Both the position numbers and the translations under genes were made by a program. Source: an uncultured Pseudomonadota bacterium (GTDB lineage Bacteria > Pseudomonadota > Alphaproteobacteria > RF32 > CAG-239). Taken from it: DNA of 34,604 nucleotides. The notes under the pieces were generated by a model. That model saw only the letters and a program-made list of their open reading frames with translations. It searched no databases and was not told the DNA's origin. Location of the stretch: positions 1-34,604 of the forward strand of contig CASEYY010000030.1 of the NCBI GenBank assembly GCA_949292335.1, read 5' to 3'. This document shows positions 16,508-24,115 of the stretch, one piece after another; position 1 is the stretch's first letter, and each line of letters begins with the position of its first letter.

Positions 16508-17437
16508 CTATTTCTCCTCACAATTCAACCCCAAAAAAGCCAAAGCTTCTCTAAAATGCTCCGGCAACTCGGCAGTTATTTTCACATTTTTATATATATC
16601 GGATAAATCTATTTTATAGGCATGAAGATATAACTTATCTTTAATTCCATTAAATTTTTCTCTTTTTAAGCCAAAATATTTATCATCCCCGACGATTGGC
16701 GTTCCGATGTATTCCATATGAGCCCTGATTTGATGGGTTCGTCCGGTCAAAGGCGAAGCCCTAACCAAAGCGAATTTATCACCGAGATTATCCAAAACCT
16801 CATACTCGGTAACAGCCTTTTTACCATCTTCGACAATTATGGATTTTTCCCCCATTTTTTCCAGCGGAGCCTTAATTTCGCCTTTACTTTTTTTCGGACA
16901 CCCTTTTACCAACGCCAAATATGTCTTTTGCAAATTATGCTCACGAAAAGCCTTGGTCAAAATATCGGCGTTCTTTCTGTCTCTGGCCAAGACCAAAATA
17001 CCCGATGTATCTTTGTCGATTCTATGTACCAACTTGGGAGCTTCTTCATTACCGAATTTCAAGGCCTCCAGCATAGCATCAATATGCCGCACGGTATTGG
17101 TTCCGCCCTGCACCGCGAGCCCGCTCGGTTTATTAAGAGCGATAATGTTTTTATCTTTATAAATAACCAAGGATTGAATGAAAGCTTTATCGTTATCAGA
17201 AATTTTTCTTTCTTTTGTTGCCGATACCTCATCATTAAGCGGCGGAATTCTTATTTCTTGCCCTGCCGCCAACTTAAGCGATGTTTCACCTCTCTTACCA
17301 TCAATCTTAATTTGTTTGGTTCGCAACAATTTTTGCAATCTCGACAATGGTAGATTCGGATAATACTTCAAGAACCAGCGATTTAACCTCATCCCGTCAT
17401 CAATCTGTTTCACAACGACAATCTGGGGTTTATTCAT
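16508..17437 (-). CDS. RluA-family large-subunit rRNA pseudouridine synthase (RluC/RluD type)
   Basis: 309 aa. An N-terminal S4 RNA-binding domain (about 15-65) is followed by the pseudouridine synthase domain. The catalytic signature HRIDKDTSGILVLAR starts at 138, giving Asp141 as the nucleophile, and RTHQIRAHM is also present. RluC modifies U955/2504/2580 and RluD modifies U1911/1915/1917 of 23S rRNA in E. coli; the RluC assignment is favoured because alphaproteobacteria commonly place an RluC-like gene near the ATP12 gene, but I leave the symbol open. The ATG overlaps the rarA stop by eight bases. Confidence 0.92.
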   Translation of the reverse strand: MNKPQIVVVKQIDDGMRLNRWFLKYYPNLPLSRLQKLLRTKQIKIDGKRGETSLKLAAGQEIRIPPLNDEVSATKERKISDNDKAFIQSLVIYKDKNIIALNKPSGLAVQGGTNTVRHIDAMLEALKFGNEEAPKLVHRIDKDTSGILVLARDRKNADILTKAFREHNLQKTYLALVKGCPKKSKGEIKAPLEKMGEKSIIVEDGKKAVTEYEVLDNLGDKFALVRASPLTGRTHQIRAHMEYIGTPIVGDDKYFGLKREKFNGIKDKLYLHAYKIDLSDIYKNVKITAELPEHFREALAFLGLNCEEK

Positions 17438-18749
17438 TTTTCATTCCTTTCTGCCGTTGTTTTTCTTGCCGCAACTTATCAAAATATTCCACCCGTTTTT
17501 TAATTTCGCGTTCAAACCCGCGGTCTGCCGGATGGTATAACTTAACTCTTTGCATTCCCTCGGGAAAATAATTAGCCCCCGAAAACCCGTCTTCACAATC
17601 GGGATCATATTCATAACCCTCACTGTAACCAAGCTGTTTCATTAGCTTAGTCGGAGCATTAAGAATATTTTTCGGCGGCATCAAAGAACCGGTTTTTCTG
17701 GCCAAATCAAACGCAGCATGCATAGCTTTGTAAACGCCTACCGATTTCGGAGCCGTAGCAAGATATGCCGCCAGCTGCATAACCGCCAAATCCCCTTCCG
17801 GTGAGCCCAATCTCTCATAAGTATCCCAACAAGCAATAGCCTGAACCACCGCCCCCGGATCGGCCAAAGAAACATCTTCAATGGCAAATCTGGTCAACCT
17901 TCTGAGTATATATTTCGGATCCTCGCCGGATGTTATCATTCTGGCCACCCAATACAAAGCCGCATCGACATCGGAACCGCGTAAAGATTTATGTACAGCC
18001 GAGATAAGATTATAATGACCGTCACGTCCTTTATCATACACCGGAGCTCTGGAGCGGATTATTTTAACAATGGAATCTTTATCAAAAATCTCCCCGCTTT
18101 TGGCATAATTCCACACACTTTCGGCCAAATTCAAAATATACCTTCCGTCACCGTCGGCGATTTGTTTCATAAAGCTTCTCGCTTCATCATCAACCGGCAA
18201 TTTTTTTCCTTCCTCTTTCTCGGCTCGTTGCAATAATTCTTCAAAATTATCTTCATTTAAGCGATTCAATACAAAGACCTGACACCTTGACAGCAAAGCG
18301 GCATTAAGCTCAAAAGATGGATTCTCGGTCGTTGCACCGACCAAGATTATGGTTCCGTCCTCGACATAAGGTAAGAAACCGTCCTGTTGTGATTTATTAA
18401 AGCGATGAATTTCATCAACAAACAATAAAGTTCCGATTCCCTGATTAGCACGTCTTTCCTGAGCATACTGGAACACTCTTTTCAAATCGGCCACGCCGGA
18501 AAACACCGCCGAGATTTGTTCAAAATAAAGTTTGGTATTTTCGGCAATCAATCTGGCAATAGTGGTTTTTCCGCACCCCGGAGGCCCCCACAATATAAAA
18601 GAGCCCACTTTACCCGAAGCAAGCATTCTTCCAAGCGGTGCGTCTTTACCTATAACTTGCTCTTGCCCCACCACTTCATCCAAAGTCTTGGGACGCAATC
18701 TATCGGCCAGAGGTCTTTTAACCGTTGTTGAAAATAAAGTTTCTTCCAT
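17430..18749 (-). CDS. rarA: replication-associated recombination protein A (MgsA/RarA AAA+ ATPase)
   Basis: 439 aa. Opening RPLADRLRPKTLDEVVGQE, Walker A GPPGCGKT at 55-62, Walker B LLFVDEIHRFNKSQQD, sensor 1 GATTENPSFELN, and the C-terminal tetramerisation region containing PKSVGVYKAMHAA are all visible. RarA acts at stalled replication forks. The gene follows the VirD4-like gene by 69 bases without a terminator, so it may be read from that transcript as well as from its own promoter. It is the head of the rluC/D-asmA-atp12-acyP run. Confidence 0.96.
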   Translation of the reverse strand: MEETLFSTTVKRPLADRLRPKTLDEVVGQEQVIGKDAPLGRMLASGKVGSFILWGPPGCGKTTIARLIAENTKLYFEQISAVFSGVADLKRVFQYAQERRANQGIGTLLFVDEIHRFNKSQQDGFLPYVEDGTIILVGATTENPSFELNAALLSRCQVFVLNRLNEDNFEELLQRAEKEEGKKLPVDDEARSFMKQIADGDGRYILNLAESVWNYAKSGEIFDKDSIVKIIRSRAPVYDKGRDGHYNLISAVHKSLRGSDVDAALYWVARMITSGEDPKYILRRLTRFAIEDVSLADPGAVVQAIACWDTYERLGSPEGDLAVMQLAAYLATAPKSVGVYKAMHAAFDLARKTGSLMPPKNILNAPTKLMKQLGYSEGYEYDPDCEDGFSGANYFPEGMQRVKLYHPADRGFEREIKKRVEYFDKLRQEKQRQKGMKNE

Positions 18750-18818: not shown

Positions 18819-21149
18819 TTATTTTTTTAAGGTAAACGGATTTTTATCCTCCGCCTCATAAACATCAAAAGCCCCTTCCTTCATCCACCAATCTTTTTCG
18901 TCGGTTTGCACTTTTTGTTGTTTTTCTTTCAAGGCTTGTTTTTTTTCTTTTATCTTATTTTCAATTTCGTCTCTATCATGTCGCTGGATTTCGTTAATTT
19001 CACTGATTGCAAAATCCATGTTTTCTTGCAATTCTGCCAAATCCTCTGCCGAGAATTTTCTTTTCCCGAAGATTTCGGTAATTTTCGGAGTATTAAGATC
19101 CGTAGCATTTTTATTAAACATCTCTTCGTCAGACAAAGTATAATCCGTATCCAAAACGACCAGTTTTTTAAAGCTCTCTTCATCATTAAAAAAGATATTA
19201 TCGGTCAGTATCGGTCGATTATAAAAGCCTTCGGCCAAAAGAATCTGGCAATCTTTGGTATCGAGATCCACCTCGCTGTCCAAATCAAAATACCGGGCCA
19301 ATTTTTCAAAATAATAGGCATTAGCGAAATATTTTCCGTCATATTTTTTTATTTTTTCTTTATATTGGGATATTTGCACAGCCTTTGTCGCAAAATTTGC
19401 CAGTTTGTGGAATTGATTGCTCAACAGTTGATTATTCTTAGCCTTAACGATTTTATATTCGGTATTTGTAACTATCGTCTCCAGATCATCATGGCCATAT
19501 GTTTTTTCGAGTAAATCCAAGCTATTACACAAGATTAATGTTGTTGCCTTTTTATTTTTCCCGCTTTCCAACAACTGAGCCAAATTTCTAATTCGTAAAT
19601 TATGCCCCACATCGTCGAGCACCAACATCATCGGCAAATCAGGAACATTCCCGTTCAAATTACGATACAATATTTCATCGACAAACATTTGGTTCAAGAT
19701 TTTTGACGGATAAGAATTAGCAAGCGAATAAACCGTAACCGGCTTAATCATATCATCCTTTTCATCAAACACTCCGTTTATATAATCAAAATCAAAGTCA
19801 TTACCGTCGGTTCTTTCTCTGACAGATTGATTGGTAAATATTTTAAAAGGCCGCAAAGCATAAACAAAAGCAATTTGCCGCTGTTTGGGCGACAGCATAA
19901 TCATTTTATTCAAGCCATCGACGGCCAACTCGCCGTAACCGAAGAGGACGGCTTCACGAAACAACGAAATAATCCAAGACTTCCAGTCTCTTTTTCCGTC
20001 ATCTTTATTGGTAATATAATTATCAATCAACCAATCGGTAATTGCGGCAAAACAAACATCTTTACCGCACCACTGCTCGGGAATACCGGCCCAACTTCCG
20101 ATAGGCATATAGTTTTCTTCATCTATGGCATTATCCGTCAACAAATCGACAGCTCTTTTGGCGTATTTATCCGGCATATGGATATAATAGCTCATAAGTA
20201 TTTCTTTATCTTCCTTATTAAGGTGTTTTCCCGATATTATTTTTTCCAAGAAATAGTCATTAGCCTGAGCCTGATTAACTTTTGCCGTCCAAAACTCCAA
20301 TATTGCGGCAATAAAAGTATAAGCCAACAAATTCCAATAGCTGTTTTTTTCCTTTTCGTTTACATCGATGACATATCCGGCAATTCTTTTGATATAAGCT
20401 TTTTTATCATCCGGATTTTGCGGAATATTTTTACGACACAACGGATTCCATCTTGGATAGAAAAGATTTTTATCCGGCTCGTCGACCAAATCCCAATTAT
20501 AATAAAACACTTTTCCCAAAGTGGCACGATATCCGGCAGTATATTTCGGCAAAGCTCCGGTCAAATCCATGGCGATTATTGAATATTTGTCGGCATTGAG
20601 TATTGACGGGATAGCCTCGTTTGAAGTTTTGCCGGTTCCCATTTCGCCGACACACAAAACAGATTTTGCTTCTGCAGTACTCAACAGTTCATCGGCAAAT
20701 TTTCCCAGCACGATACCGGAATTACCAGTAATTCCCATTTTTTTTATATCTGCCGGTTTGGCAAAATGATAAGTCAGGATATACCACAATCTAAAAGAAT
20801 ATCTTCGCTCCCAAAAAGCAAAGGTCAAGGTTATTATCATTATAAGTAGGACGATAACCGGGATTAGGAGCAGTGGCGAAAATTGCATTTGCCTTATATT
20901 TTGCAACAATTCTTTCCACCAGATAGAGTAAAGTTGCATTATATAAAACGGGTTATAAAATATCTCGGCCCAATCGCAATTTAAGCCTTCTCCAGGGATA
21001 AGCTCCAAGGCATAGGCTCCCTCTAAAAGGGCAAAACCAAACACGGAAATTCCCCAAAAACTAAAGTATGTAAGCAACAAAGCCGCACCGACATAAAACA
21101 ATGCTCTGATGCGACTTTTTTCTTCAGCTATGGAAATTTTCTCAACCAT
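18819..21149 (-). CDS. VirD4/TraG-like (type IV coupling protein) membrane ATPase
   Basis: 776 aa. Two N-terminal membrane segments (about 14-42 and 91-111) are followed by a cytosolic ATPase. Walker A is GEMGTGKTS (168-176), and SIIAMDLTGALPKYTAGYRA matches the D-x-K/T-G-E region of VirD4 proteins. Further on are PMMLVLDDVGHNL (Walker B-like), NLAQLLESGKNKKATTLILCNSLDLLEKTYG, and TNTEYKIVKAKNNQL. The order fits type IV secretion coupling proteins that hand substrates to a channel. Walker B reads D-D where family members have D-E, and the sensor Gln is Asn. The C terminus (about 700-760) is a charged coiled coil. No relaxase, VirB or pilus gene is seen nearby. A TraD/FtsK-like DNA pump is the alternative. 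Confidence 0.75.
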   Translation of the reverse strand: MVEKISIAEEKSRIRALFYVGAALLLTYFSFWGISVFGFALLEGAYALELIPGEGLNCDWAEIFYNPFYIMQLYSIWWKELLQNIRQMQFSPLLLIPVIVLLIMIITLTFAFWERRYSFRLWYILTYHFAKPADIKKMGITGNSGIVLGKFADELLSTAEAKSVLCVGEMGTGKTSNEAIPSILNADKYSIIAMDLTGALPKYTAGYRATLGKVFYYNWDLVDEPDKNLFYPRWNPLCRKNIPQNPDDKKAYIKRIAGYVIDVNEKEKNSYWNLLAYTFIAAILEFWTAKVNQAQANDYFLEKIISGKHLNKEDKEILMSYYIHMPDKYAKRAVDLLTDNAIDEENYMPIGSWAGIPEQWCGKDVCFAAITDWLIDNYITNKDDGKRDWKSWIISLFREAVLFGYGELAVDGLNKMIMLSPKQRQIAFVYALRPFKIFTNQSVRERTDGNDFDFDYINGVFDEKDDMIKPVTVYSLANSYPSKILNQMFVDEILYRNLNGNVPDLPMMLVLDDVGHNLRIRNLAQLLESGKNKKATTLILCNSLDLLEKTYGHDDLETIVTNTEYKIVKAKNNQLLSNQFHKLANFATKAVQISQYKEKIKKYDGKYFANAYYFEKLARYFDLDSEVDLDTKDCQILLAEGFYNRPILTDNIFFNDEESFKKLVVLDTDYTLSDEEMFNKNATDLNTPKITEIFGKRKFSAEDLAELQENMDFAISEINEIQRHDRDEIENKIKEKKQALKEKQQKVQTDEKDWWMKEGAFDVYEAEDKNPFTLKK

Positions 21150-21154
21150 AAGCT

Positions 21155-22261
21155 CTACCTACCCCGACCGCTTCGAAAAGGAATTATCCGCCGTTTAGTA
21201 TCTTTGTTTTTCTGTTTTTCGGCTTCCAGACTATCTCTCAAGGCTTTACGGGCAGCAAGTTCTTTTTGTTTTCTTTCTTCAATAATTCTCCGTAATTCCT
21301 CATTATGTGAATTAGCTTGTTTTTCTTGCTCAGACTTAGCATTATCCAATGCTTCTTTATCTTTAACTTCAGGTTTATCTGCTTTACCAAAAACCTTTTT
21401 TCCCATTTTAAGCAAAGTTTCAATACTTACGCCCTTGTCCTTTTGAAAATCCCACACACCGAACTCTTTACCGTCCCCCAGAAACAAATCCGTAAAATCA
21501 ACGCCTTTGTAATTTCCTTTATTTTTCTTTTTCGGAGCTAATATCCTAGCCAACTCTTCCGCCCCCGGTACTCTGCCCAGAGCTTGAGCAATCTGTTGCG
21601 GAGTAATAATGCATTCGCTCAAATCCAATCCGACGATATTAACTCCGGTAAAATCGACTCCGGTAAAGTCGACCCCGCGTAAATCAAGTTTGCTCAAATC
21701 TATATTTGCCAGATTCAAGCCTCGGAGATTCATATTTTTCAAGCTTAGCTTATGCGGATAATATTTTGCCAAATATTCAATTACGGCCTGCAATTCTTCC
21801 AAACCGGCTGCATCGATATCGACATCGACCAGTATGGCATTTTCTAAATCGGCATCGGTAAGTTTCACCCCGTGCATTTTAGCTTTGGCAAAATTTGTAT
21901 TCTGCAACACGGCACCGGAAAATATTGCACCGGTCAAATCAGCACCCGAAAGATTAGCACCGGTAAGATTAGCTCCCGAGAAGTCAACCCCGCGTAAATC
22001 GGCACCCGAAAAATCCACACCGCTCAGATTTGCCACCGAAAAATTAGCTCCTCGCAAATTTTCATTGGCAAATTTTCCGCTTTCCAAATTTTTACCTACG
22101 AACTGCAAATCATCGTCAAATGACACCTTTACATCATCACCTTGTTTTGCCACCCGATGCCAGGTACCGCCGTTTTCTTCACCGGCCAATTCTTTTTCAA
22201 AGGCGTCCGTTTGTTCTTTCAATCTGCTACGCAGCTCATCAAGTTTGTGTTCATCCGTCAT
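21155..22261 (-). CDS. pentapeptide-repeat protein with coiled-coil tail
   Basis: 368 aa, no signal peptide. After a charged N terminus (1-55), two blocks of A(D/N)LxG-type pentapeptides occur at about 57-150 and 176-220 (for example NLRGANFSVANLSGVDFSG), predicted to form a right-handed quadrilateral beta helix. A short linker region (about 225-295) is followed by a charged helical or coiled-coil tail (about 300-355) ending in a basic stretch, RRIIPFRSGRGR. The gene lies five bases before the VirD4-like gene and 69 bases after the SPOR lipoprotein gene. Function is unknown; pentapeptide proteins range from gyrase-binding proteins to secreted effectors, and the context would permit a scaffold or a substrate for the VirD4-like ATPase. 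Confidence 0.85.
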   Translation of the reverse strand: MTDEHKLDELRSRLKEQTDAFEKELAGEENGGTWHRVAKQGDDVKVSFDDDLQFVGKNLESGKFANENLRGANFSVANLSGVDFSGADLRGVDFSGANLTGANLSGADLTGAIFSGAVLQNTNFAKAKMHGVKLTDADLENAILVDVDIDAAGLEELQAVIEYLAKYYPHKLSLKNMNLRGLNLANIDLSKLDLRGVDFTGVDFTGVNIVGLDLSECIITPQQIAQALGRVPGAEELARILAPKKKNKGNYKGVDFTDLFLGDGKEFGVWDFQKDKGVSIETLLKMGKKVFGKADKPEVKDKEALDNAKSEQEKQANSHNEELRRIIEERKQKELAARKALRDSLEAEKQKNKDTKRRIIPFRSGRGR

Positions 22262-22330
22262 TAAAAAACCTCTGCTTCAACCACTTGCTAAGGTTAAGGG
22301 TAATTCAAAAATTACAATTTTACAAACAAA

Positions 22331-24082
22331 TTATTTCAAAATACATTCAAAACCCTGATTGATTACTTGATTGCATAAAGATTTAAGATTTTCTGGTTCT
22401 GGTTTTACTAAAATACGATGATACGACACACCGTTAACGACGGCATTCTCAATGAACATATCATATCCGGCCAACGCTTTTACATTATCTTTTAGTCTTT
22501 TTTGTTCTTCAATGGCGTTACCCATATCAGTATAGGCTCCGAGCTGTAATAAGGTTTTATTTTTGGTGCTTATCACAGGCTTTGCAACCGATTTTGTTTT
22601 TTGCTTTACCGGTTTGTTTTTTACCTTCTCATCACTACCGTCAATCAGCTCCTCAAGCCAACCGTCCTTATGAGCCCAAGCATTACCGCCGTCATCCCAT
22701 CTTGGCTGCTCTTTAACTGCCGAAAGCATAACGATTACATCTTTATTAAAGGCTTTTTGCAACACAGTTTCGATATCGGCAATTTTGGCCTTCAACATAT
22801 TTTTATCAAACGGTGACAATCCGGCCAAATAGTACAGGTTACGCAAAGCTGCGGCTCTTTCGGCCAATATCTGTGCTTCTTTTTGCTCCAAAGCGATTAT
22901 GGCGATTTCTTGGTTCAGCAAATCGATTTTTTCATAGTCCGGCAATTTATCTTTTTTCTTCATTTCCCGCAGTAGATTCTTAGCCTCGGACAATTTATAG
23001 CGGTTAGCCTCATAGTCAAATGAAGCTTTTTCGACCAACCGATAAGCCAATTCTACTTGTGTCATCACCAAAGCTGCCAATTCATCAAAAGCTTTTTGTT
23101 TGATTCTTTCGTCTTTTTTATCGTTTTGATATTCGTCTACGGCACTAAGCAAATTCATGGTAACTCTTTTGGCTTTATTAAAGAGTTCATTTTCATATCT
23201 CCCGTCATCGACTTTCAAGCCGTTAATATCAAGCCTTGCGACCGGAGGATAATCGACATAAGCCTGCCGTCTGGCCTTTGCGGTATTAAAAGATCCCAGT
23301 TGCTCTTTAGCCAAAGCAAATTCGCGGCGATTTGCGACTGCGGCATCGGCAAAAATATCGGGAGTATAATTCTTGTCAAAATCTTCCAGCTCGTAGAATC
23401 TCTTACCCGTCAAAGACAAATTTTTATCGGTGATTTTAAGCAACTGCGAATACTCGGTTGAGGTAAATTGCAACTGTTTTTTAATTTCGCCCAAATTATT
23501 CAAAGCCACTTCCAAATTTTTGCGGTAATTAAGTTGCGGTAGTGTCAATTCATCATTTTTGTACTGCTCGTTAAGTTTGGCCAAAACTTTTCCCTGTTGG
23601 GAGAGAAGCCTGTCAATTTTTTTAATCTGTTTAAGGGCGAATATTTCTTCTCTTTGCAGTTTTATGGCGGCCAAGCTCAAATTTTGAGCAGACTTTGCAT
23701 ACAAATTATTTTCGACATATCCCTGATTATCGGTCAACACGCTCATGGCATAAATATCGGCAAAATCCATAGCTCTTGCGGCATTATAGAGCTTATCCTC
23801 GGGCTGGCCGGCATCAAACATTGCCTCCACGGTTTTAACCGGATTCTCATTTTCGCCGTAGATTTTTTTAAACATATTCTGAGCGGAAACATCGGCGTTA
23901 TACTTTGCCGCTCTGGCCATGGCGTAATAGACATCAATTTTATCCGGAGCTTTTTCATAAGTACCGGTAAAGACCAAATCGGTAGTTTGCAAATCACTTC
24001 CCAATGATTTTTTATCTGCGGCACAAGCAGCCAGCAACATTGTAGCCGACAACATCAATCCGCGAGCGAAGTTCTTAATCAT
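22331..24082 (-). CDS. outer-membrane-efflux-like lipoprotein with C-terminal SPOR domain
   Basis: About 583 aa. Start 24082 (MIKNFARGLM) is chosen because a GGGGG-containing site lies just upstream and the peptide then has a lipoprotein signal with lipobox LAAC (Cys20); the open frame extends to 24115 with no ribosome site. The +2 residue is Ala, so sorting to the outer membrane is expected. The middle (about 40-460) is long helical and coiled coil and begins VYYAMARAAKYNADVSAQN, resembling TolC-type proteins; ALRNLYYLAGLSPFD at about 430 is also like them. The last 75 residues (LQLGAYTDMGNAIEEQKRL onward) look like a SPOR peptidoglycan-binding domain. OEP assignment is moderate, SPOR fair. 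First gene of the VirD4 cluster. Confidence 0.7.
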   Translation of the reverse strand: MIKNFARGLMLSATMLLAACAADKKSLGSDLQTTDLVFTGTYEKAPDKIDVYYAMARAAKYNADVSAQNMFKKIYGENENPVKTVEAMFDAGQPEDKLYNAARAMDFADIYAMSVLTDNQGYVENNLYAKSAQNLSLAAIKLQREEIFALKQIKKIDRLLSQQGKVLAKLNEQYKNDELTLPQLNYRKNLEVALNNLGEIKKQLQFTSTEYSQLLKITDKNLSLTGKRFYELEDFDKNYTPDIFADAAVANRREFALAKEQLGSFNTAKARRQAYVDYPPVARLDINGLKVDDGRYENELFNKAKRVTMNLLSAVDEYQNDKKDERIKQKAFDELAALVMTQVELAYRLVEKASFDYEANRYKLSEAKNLLREMKKKDKLPDYEKIDLLNQEIAIIALEQKEAQILAERAAALRNLYYLAGLSPFDKNMLKAKIADIETVLQKAFNKDVIVMLSAVKEQPRWDDGGNAWAHKDGWLEELIDGSDEKVKNKPVKQKTKSVAKPVISTKNKTLLQLGAYTDMGNAIEEQKRLKDNVKALAGYDMFIENAVVNGVSYHRILVKPEPENLKSLCNQVINQGFECILK

Positions 24083-24097
24083 AAAGCCCCCTGATTT

Positions 24098-24115
24098 TGT
24101 AACAAAATGTAACAA
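24098..24115 (-). repeat. tandem direct repeat TGTAACAA upstream of the SPOR lipoprotein gene
   Basis: TGTAACAA occurs at 24098-24105 and again at 24108-24115, a ten-base period, inside the short divergent region before the lipoprotein start codon. One helical turn between copies puts both on one DNA face, as in a regulator site. No binding protein is known. Confidence 0.4.

Follow-up and report, generated by a model that had tools for sequence, protein, structure and literature searches.

A pentapeptide-linked VirD4-type ATPase as a candidate two-protein coupling-protein module in Alphaproteobacteria

The stretch of DNA analysed here (34,604 nucleotides, hereafter the window) belongs to an uncultured alphaproteobacterium of the order RF32 (assembly GCA_949292335.1, contig CASEYY010000030.1) and contains three adjacent genes for a TolC-fold lipoprotein (LIPO), a pentapeptide-repeat protein (PENTA) and a VirD4-like ATPase (VirD4A). 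We propose, with a probability of roughly 0.5, that PENTA and VirD4A constitute a two-protein coupling-protein module that in the window's clade works without a type IV secretion system (T4SS), and that LIPO was added to it in this order. The proposal draws on the family identity of the proteins, the synteny of their genes, the separate grouping of pentapeptide-linked VirD4 proteins, the changed motifs of VirD4A, and searches of the source genome in which neither VirB4 nor the relaxase family PF03432 was found. That genome comprises 1,475,206 bases in 49 contigs and is rated 100% complete; the window is its contig C30.

22331..24082, minus strand: LIPO, TolC-fold lipoprotein without predicted barrel strands, 583 amino acids from ATG
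21155..22261, minus strand: PENTA, pentapeptide-repeat protein, 368 amino acids (Pfam PF00805, 216 bits; homologues in 119 of the 126 genomes of the order that were surveyed)
18819..21149, minus strand: VirD4A, predicted VirD4-superfamily inner-membrane ATPase, 776 amino acids (open reading frame and Pfam)

By the reading of open reading frames (ORFs) the gene order on the minus strand is LIPO, PENTA, VirD4A, the genes being separated by 69 and 5 bases, which confirms the coordinates of the initial annotation. An alternative TTG start of LIPO at 24115 would give 594 amino acids.

The VirD4A ATPase

VirD4A passes the Pfam cut-offs (in brackets) of three VirD4-type profiles, T4SS-DNA_transf (PF02534) with 37.9 bits (20.1), TrwB_AAD_bind with 28 (20.5) and TraG-D_C with 23.5 (22), and no family matches it better, so its earlier description as VirD4-like holds. 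T4SS-DNA_transf is matched at E<=0.01 by all 56 members of the family. The best fold matches are Cag-beta and TrwB, and the model has the helical domain between core strands that marks the coupling-protein fold. Two N-terminal hydrophobic segments are covered by 19-residue windows starting at residues 16-24 and 85-98.

20619..20651, minus strand: Walker A motif, residues 167-177, VGEMGTGKTSN; Lys in 54 of 54 orthologues
19599..19631, minus strand: Walker B motif, residues 507-517, MMLVLDDVGHN; Asp in place of the usual Glu
18834..18890, minus strand: C-terminal motif WW..E..F...NPF, residues 754-772

The Walker B motif of VirD4A is not of the canonical DE type. Its second position is occupied by Asp (49), Asn (4) or Gly (1) in the 54 orthologues and by Glu in none, whereas VirD4B, the other VirD4 protein of the order, has Glu in six of six; the Gln of the motif after Walker B is also changed. 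P-type VirD4 proteins, which occur outside the order, have DD or DE in Walker B (DN in locus L225), and most of them retain the Gln; motif loss is therefore most marked in the window's order. The C-terminal WW...NPF tail is present in 49 of 54 VirD4A proteins and in the single orthologue from family f2, and in none of the 12 P, 6 B, 14 Bx and 6 C rows compared (two fragments included).

These changes, the lost Glu and the altered Gln, are what one would expect if VirD4A were a pseudo-ATPase, either decaying or regulatory, that persists as a scaffold or to modulate VirD4B. Its faster change relative to the flanking genes (identity between relatives of 80-81% against 90-99%, with 90-93% for PENTA) and the 64 of 126 order genomes in which it was not found, among the matches listed, point the same way. 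However, the Walker A Lys is retained in every orthologue, invariant residues are spread along the protein, the C-terminal motif is specific, and the ratio of nonsynonymous to synonymous substitution (0.05-0.07) indicates purifying selection, and we regard a pseudo-ATPase of this kind as quite unlikely.

Distribution and synteny of the three genes in the order

Homologue searches of the 126 genomes found VirD4A in at least 62, LIPO in 67 and PENTA in 119. VirD4A was told from VirD4B by score and place, and its genome count is a lower bound; a SPOR-only match in genome G083 was left out of the 68 listed for LIPO. At least 61 genomes have both VirD4A and LIPO. Among the matches listed, VirD4A occurs without LIPO in one genome, LIPO without VirD4A in six, and PENTA without VirD4A in 57 of 126, and the idea of three inseparable parts finds no support as it stands. 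Among the same matches, the seven genomes without PENTA have neither VirD4A nor LIPO.

The three genes adjoin in relatives, and the arrangement LIPO-PENTA-VirD4A-rarA is kept across genera, occasionally with one more, uncharacterised gene. The gap between PENTA and VirD4A is -44 to +21 bases in 48 of 52 loci; two of the 54 VirD4A loci (L112 and L116) lack a PENTA ORF on the same strand in the ORF set. The genes rarA, rluC and asmA are conserved neighbours as well, as would be expected if the genes had no functional link and stayed together through slow genome rearrangement. Two observations speak against this and make it highly improbable: the genes overlap or lie at most 21 bases apart in those 48 loci, and four other families have the pair too, flanked there by different outer neighbours.

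17430..18749, minus strand: rarA/mgsA, conserved neighbour downstream of VirD4A

The rarA/mgsA gene lies on the same strand, 69 bases beyond VirD4A. In the VirD4A-less loci that were read, PENTA adjoins rarA in 12 of 15; it does not in two loci of genus g5, and in L069 a gene lies between. No RarA orthologue was found in the seven PENTA-less genomes (G008, G018, G029, G069, G081, G062 and G071; best partial matches of 24-35% identity), and the PENTA-rarA block was probably lost together there. RarA as a functional partner was set aside in favour of such block loss because outside the order the pair adjoins other genes. In genera g2 and g11 a gene for a protein of 423-445 amino acids adjoins VirD4A or PENTA (L048:7029-8300, L052, L053 and L069); its L048 version has no Pfam, PADLOC or PHROG match.

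The PENTA-VirD4 pair outside the order

A class-wide search with the VirD4A profile gave a match in 80 of 385 genomes. A second VirD4, counted where a further match reached 193 bits or more so that weaker ones (in G127, G174 and larger genomes, for example) are left aside, was found in 13 genomes outside the order; locus L235 of G127, which was read, has no clear VirD4. Directly upstream of this second VirD4 lies a pentapeptide gene in 11 of the 13 genomes (families f40, f74, f23 and f91); these genes were identified by BLAST and alignment, not by Pfam. The immediate neighbours of the B-type VirD4 in these 11 genomes include no pentapeptide gene but, in every case, a B416-like one. At the loci read outside the order, no homologue of LIPO was seen next to the pair. 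The VirD4 that adjoins the pentapeptide gene in G214 is split by a stop, and L225 carries a P-type VirD4 without a pentapeptide gene. In family f2 (G001), PENTA is next to VirD4, and the neighbourhood also holds an OEP gene, two HlyD-type genes and an M50/HlyD gene.

Profile comparison shows homology between the two groups of PENTA proteins (E 2.2e-38, 150 columns). In phylogenetic trees the A, f2 and P rows of VirD4 fall on one side of a 100/100 branch under both plain and mixture models. The trees hold 52 and 50 VirD4 proteins, including 15 of the 54 VirD4A rows; L226 (a fragment) and L237 (cut) were left out of both, and the long L225 and L233 also out of the second. The PENTA-VirD4 pair appears older than the order, having split from other VirD4 proteins before the surveyed families diverged, and LIPO seems to have been added in this order.

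T4SS components and VirD4B

Among the 28 window proteins scanned against Pfam (8 at E<=1 and 20 at E<=1e-5, smaller ORFs lying outside the scan), no T4SS, relaxase, pilus or integrase family was found besides VirD4A, as the initial annotation had it. Its statement that there are no other secretion genes is correct for the window and does not extend to the order, most of which has a VirB4 locus elsewhere. In 105 of the 126 genomes of the order the VirB4 family is matched at E<=0.001. Of these matches 104 reach at least 216 bits, the one in G104 is weak, and none passes the strict cut-off; 8 of 14 control genomes match at the same E-value, one over the cut-off. Seven candidates per genome were scored, and this search misses some VirB4 proteins, since none was found in G069 despite its 1283-residue T4SS-locus protein.

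The rest of the window's genome, for which the initial annotation had suggested such a search, yielded no VirB4 with three queries: PF03135, which does match the VirB4 of L163, TIGR00929 (7 of 15 candidates scored) and a same-genus VirB4 protein. The 1283-residue protein occurs in 6 of 16 genomes, including G069 and the query source G033, and was not found in the window's genome and nine relatives; all ten have both VirD4A and VirD4B. The VirB4 locus was apparently lost in the window's own clade.

In the T4SS-like loci L162-L167 a gene for a 96-residue protein lies beside VirB4 in six of six, and four have a VirB8-type family; Pfam matches bear out VirB4 and VirB8 in L163 as well as a VirB2-type pilin in L164. 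The large protein of the locus has 1413 residues and no Pfam match in its L163 version, and TcpQ and secretin genes lie near the L163 locus. VirD4B of the window's genome shares 91% identity with its counterpart in G022, a genome with a T4SS locus. VirD4B belongs to a conserved five-gene group (B294, B710, B159, B416 and VirD4B) beside rluD and rpoH (L038:163-7287; G000:C48), which is kept where VirB4 was not found; no Pfam family is over cut-off for B416, B710 or B294.

The relaxase family PF03432 is over cut-off in none of the 126 order genomes, with weak matches in G095 and G106 and none in the window's genome; other relaxase families were not searched. Conjugation was rejected as a role on this count. 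Together with the adjacency of the three genes in relatives, the result agrees with the earlier view that a coupling-protein homologue is retained vertically outside conjugation.

The pentapeptide-repeat protein

PENTA contains tandem A(D/N)LXX repeats and is the pentapeptide protein that the initial annotation described. A signal peptide is not apparent by eye.

21608..22114, minus strand: pentapeptide repeat region, about residues 50-218, acidic (alignment)
21158..21202, minus strand: Arg-rich C-terminal tail, residues 354-368, ending SGRGR

The repeat region has a mean net charge of -12.5 (175-residue stretches of 68 members), and the central region is highly conserved in the alignment. Three or more Arg among the last 15 residues are found in 52 of 68 PENTA members, 17 of 56 LIPO members and 66 of 1091 other ORFs of at least 150 codons. 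Pentapeptide relatives from other families reach this count in 5 of 11 and have more Lys; the mean net charge of their last 15 residues is +6.5. PENTA scores below the cut-off of every NCBIfam model listed, including the Qnr family (50.5 bits against 240) and MfpA (48.9 against 360). A link to DotG/IcmE (NCBIfam 24 bits, cut-off 750) was dropped as repeat similarity.

Basic C-terminal signals are known from T4SS substrates, and the tail could mean that PENTA is cargo: VirD4A would be a second coupling protein that recruits it through the Arg-rich tail as a substrate of the order's T4SS. The frequency of the tail in PENTA, the basic tails of the 11 relatives and the VirB4 matches in 105 order genomes agree with this, and a Rickettsia study reports cREM-4, a protein with a small pentapeptide repeat, among the interactors of the coupling protein RvhD4 (PMC11077975). 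Against it, the pair is kept in ten genomes where the large T4SS-locus protein was not found, PENTA also carries the tail in genomes in which VirD4A is missing, the tails of LIPO are fairly Arg-rich too, so that this feature is not unique to PENTA, and PENTA changes more slowly than VirD4A. We consider cargo an unlikely role, and PENTA would instead be a partner of VirD4A.

The lipoprotein

24023..24034, minus strand: lipobox LAAC, residues 17-20; Cys20 at least 90% conserved
22334..22558, minus strand: SPOR domain, residues 509-583

Of 53 LIPO members, 42 have a lipobox pattern within the 60 N-terminal residues. The SPOR match of the window's own LIPO (15 bits in Pfam) is under the cut-off of 21, yet SPOR is found at E<=0.01 in 26 of 55 family members, the window's LIPO not among these, and the C-terminus of its predicted model fits solved SPOR domains. 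These findings agree with the designation as a SPOR lipoprotein. The term efflux-like is supported by a comparison of profiles with OEP-type proteins (probability 99.8, E 1.2e-27); the predicted fold is a TolC-like helical barrel. The Pfam scan of the OEP sequence set covered the family-f2 protein only.

In the predicted model, no strand of three or more residues, as an outer-membrane barrel would need, was found outside SPOR, and the LIPO/OEP alignment has a gap at what we take to be the place of the OEP family's first barrel hairpin. Without barrel strands in the model an outer-membrane pore is not predicted, and LIPO is unlikely to be a pore by itself. This bears on a further explanation close to the initial annotation, that of a full trans-envelope exporter with LIPO as an outer-membrane channel driven by VirD4A. 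It gains from the OEP relationship and from the f2 cluster, whose two HlyD-type genes and M50/HlyD gene could bridge the periplasm. However, nothing related to the M50/HlyD protein of f2 turned up in the window's genome (G000), 20 other M50 stretches have no VirD4 homologue, and VirD4A and LIPO are separable. Such an exporter is very unlikely, and the trans-envelope machine of the initial annotation is not upheld as a channel.

The HlyD and M50 genes of f2 were rejected as parts of the module on the same 20 stretches, among which L130 is a short contig and L142 has an M50 gene missed by the ORF caller; in L141 a pentapeptide gene lies some 5 kb from the M50 gene. OEP-HlyD-HlyD/GAF-M50 clusters occur in other alphaproteobacteria (L131, L132, L136, L138, L139 and L144), several of them beside giant repeat-protein-like ORFs.

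Proposed role of the module

We propose that VirD4A is a coupling-protein-type motor at the inner membrane and that PENTA, encoded by the tightly linked upstream gene, would be its dedicated cytoplasmic partner, in direct contact with it. VirD4A probably forms a membrane ring and uses ATP to engage or release protein that binds via PENTA and the WW...NPF tail; its ATP use is perhaps slow because of the altered Walker B. In this order LIPO would have been added on the periplasmic side, where it could hold peptidoglycan through SPOR and would anchor or guide the site. The material moved would be protein. By the PF03432 result the module is not conjugative, and it seems to act without a VirB4-driven T4SS in the window's clade.

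Several points weigh against a PENTA-VirD4A module. The retention of PENTA without VirD4A suggests that PENTA does something else too or instead, and many of the surveyed genomes are fragmented. VirD4A is the faster-changing protein and, with both the Walker B Glu and the Gln of the following motif lost, may not hydrolyse ATP. The pentapeptide gene does not adjoin the second VirD4 in 2 of 13 genomes (G193 and G156), family f2 is represented by one genome, the cross-family similarity of PENTA over 150 columns is mostly in repeats, and the VirD4 trees are unrooted. The T4SS search of the window's own genome covered VirB4 and one large T4SS-locus protein only, and its same-genus VirB4 query had no internal positive control.

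VirD4 proteins have been studied as T4SS substrate receptors. According to a 2025 review, some T4SSs lack VirD4, but VirB4 is a signature subunit of all T4SSs described (PMC12857230). The reverse case is seen here, with two VirD4 proteins kept where VirB4 was not found and VirD4A under purifying selection. At somewhat less than even odds, VirD4A would stand for a new class of VirD4 motor, a stand-alone envelope machine with a pentapeptide partner that a barrel-less TolC-fold lipoprotein joins in one order. If so, the motor can live apart from the channel, and the locus offers a natural system for the role of a coupling protein without a channel; the partner would also give a role to a repeat family with mostly unknown functions. 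Literature searches turned up no paper describing a VirD4-pentapeptide pair.

Other sequence features of the window

Third-position GC content of the three genes resembles that of their neighbours (0.38-0.42, with 0.39-0.47 in six other genes), a measure of GC and not of codon use as such. Divergence from two relatives at fourfold sites is 0.55-0.60 for PENTA and VirD4A, 0.44-0.47 for LIPO and 0.21-0.53 for 11 flanking genes; between the two relatives themselves it is less raised (0.49 and 0.44, flanks up to 0.51). Allele exchange at 18819-22261 is possible, with codon bias as an alternative. Scans for promoters (17 against a shuffled mean of 15.6) and terminators (8 against 5.8) stayed at the shuffled level. 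A defence role was dropped as PADLOC gave no match, and a phage origin as VirD4A and LIPO have no PHROG match.

Comparison with known systems

VirD4A resembles the VirD4, TraG, TrwB and Cag-beta coupling proteins in PF02534, the two N-terminal hydrophobic segments, Walker A and the fold. In contrast to them it has a mostly DD Walker B, a lost Gln, the WW...NPF tail and a pentapeptide neighbour, and no VirB4 or PF03432 relaxase was found in the window's genome. It differs from the DotL-centred coupling complex of Legionella in that its neighbour is a pentapeptide protein.

Unlike the outer-membrane factors TolC and CusC, LIPO has no predicted beta-barrel strands and carries a C-terminal SPOR domain. 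The OEP proteins of the OEP-HlyD-HlyD/GAF-M50 clusters in other alphaproteobacteria are related to LIPO, and the f2 cluster adjoins PENTA and VirD4, whereas the 20 other stretches have no VirD4 homologue and the M50 protein was not found in the window's genome. PENTA shares repeats and an acidic repeat region with Qnr, MfpA and PipB-type proteins, but it scores below the NCBIfam cut-offs, has a long Arg-tailed C-terminus and is linked to a VirD4.

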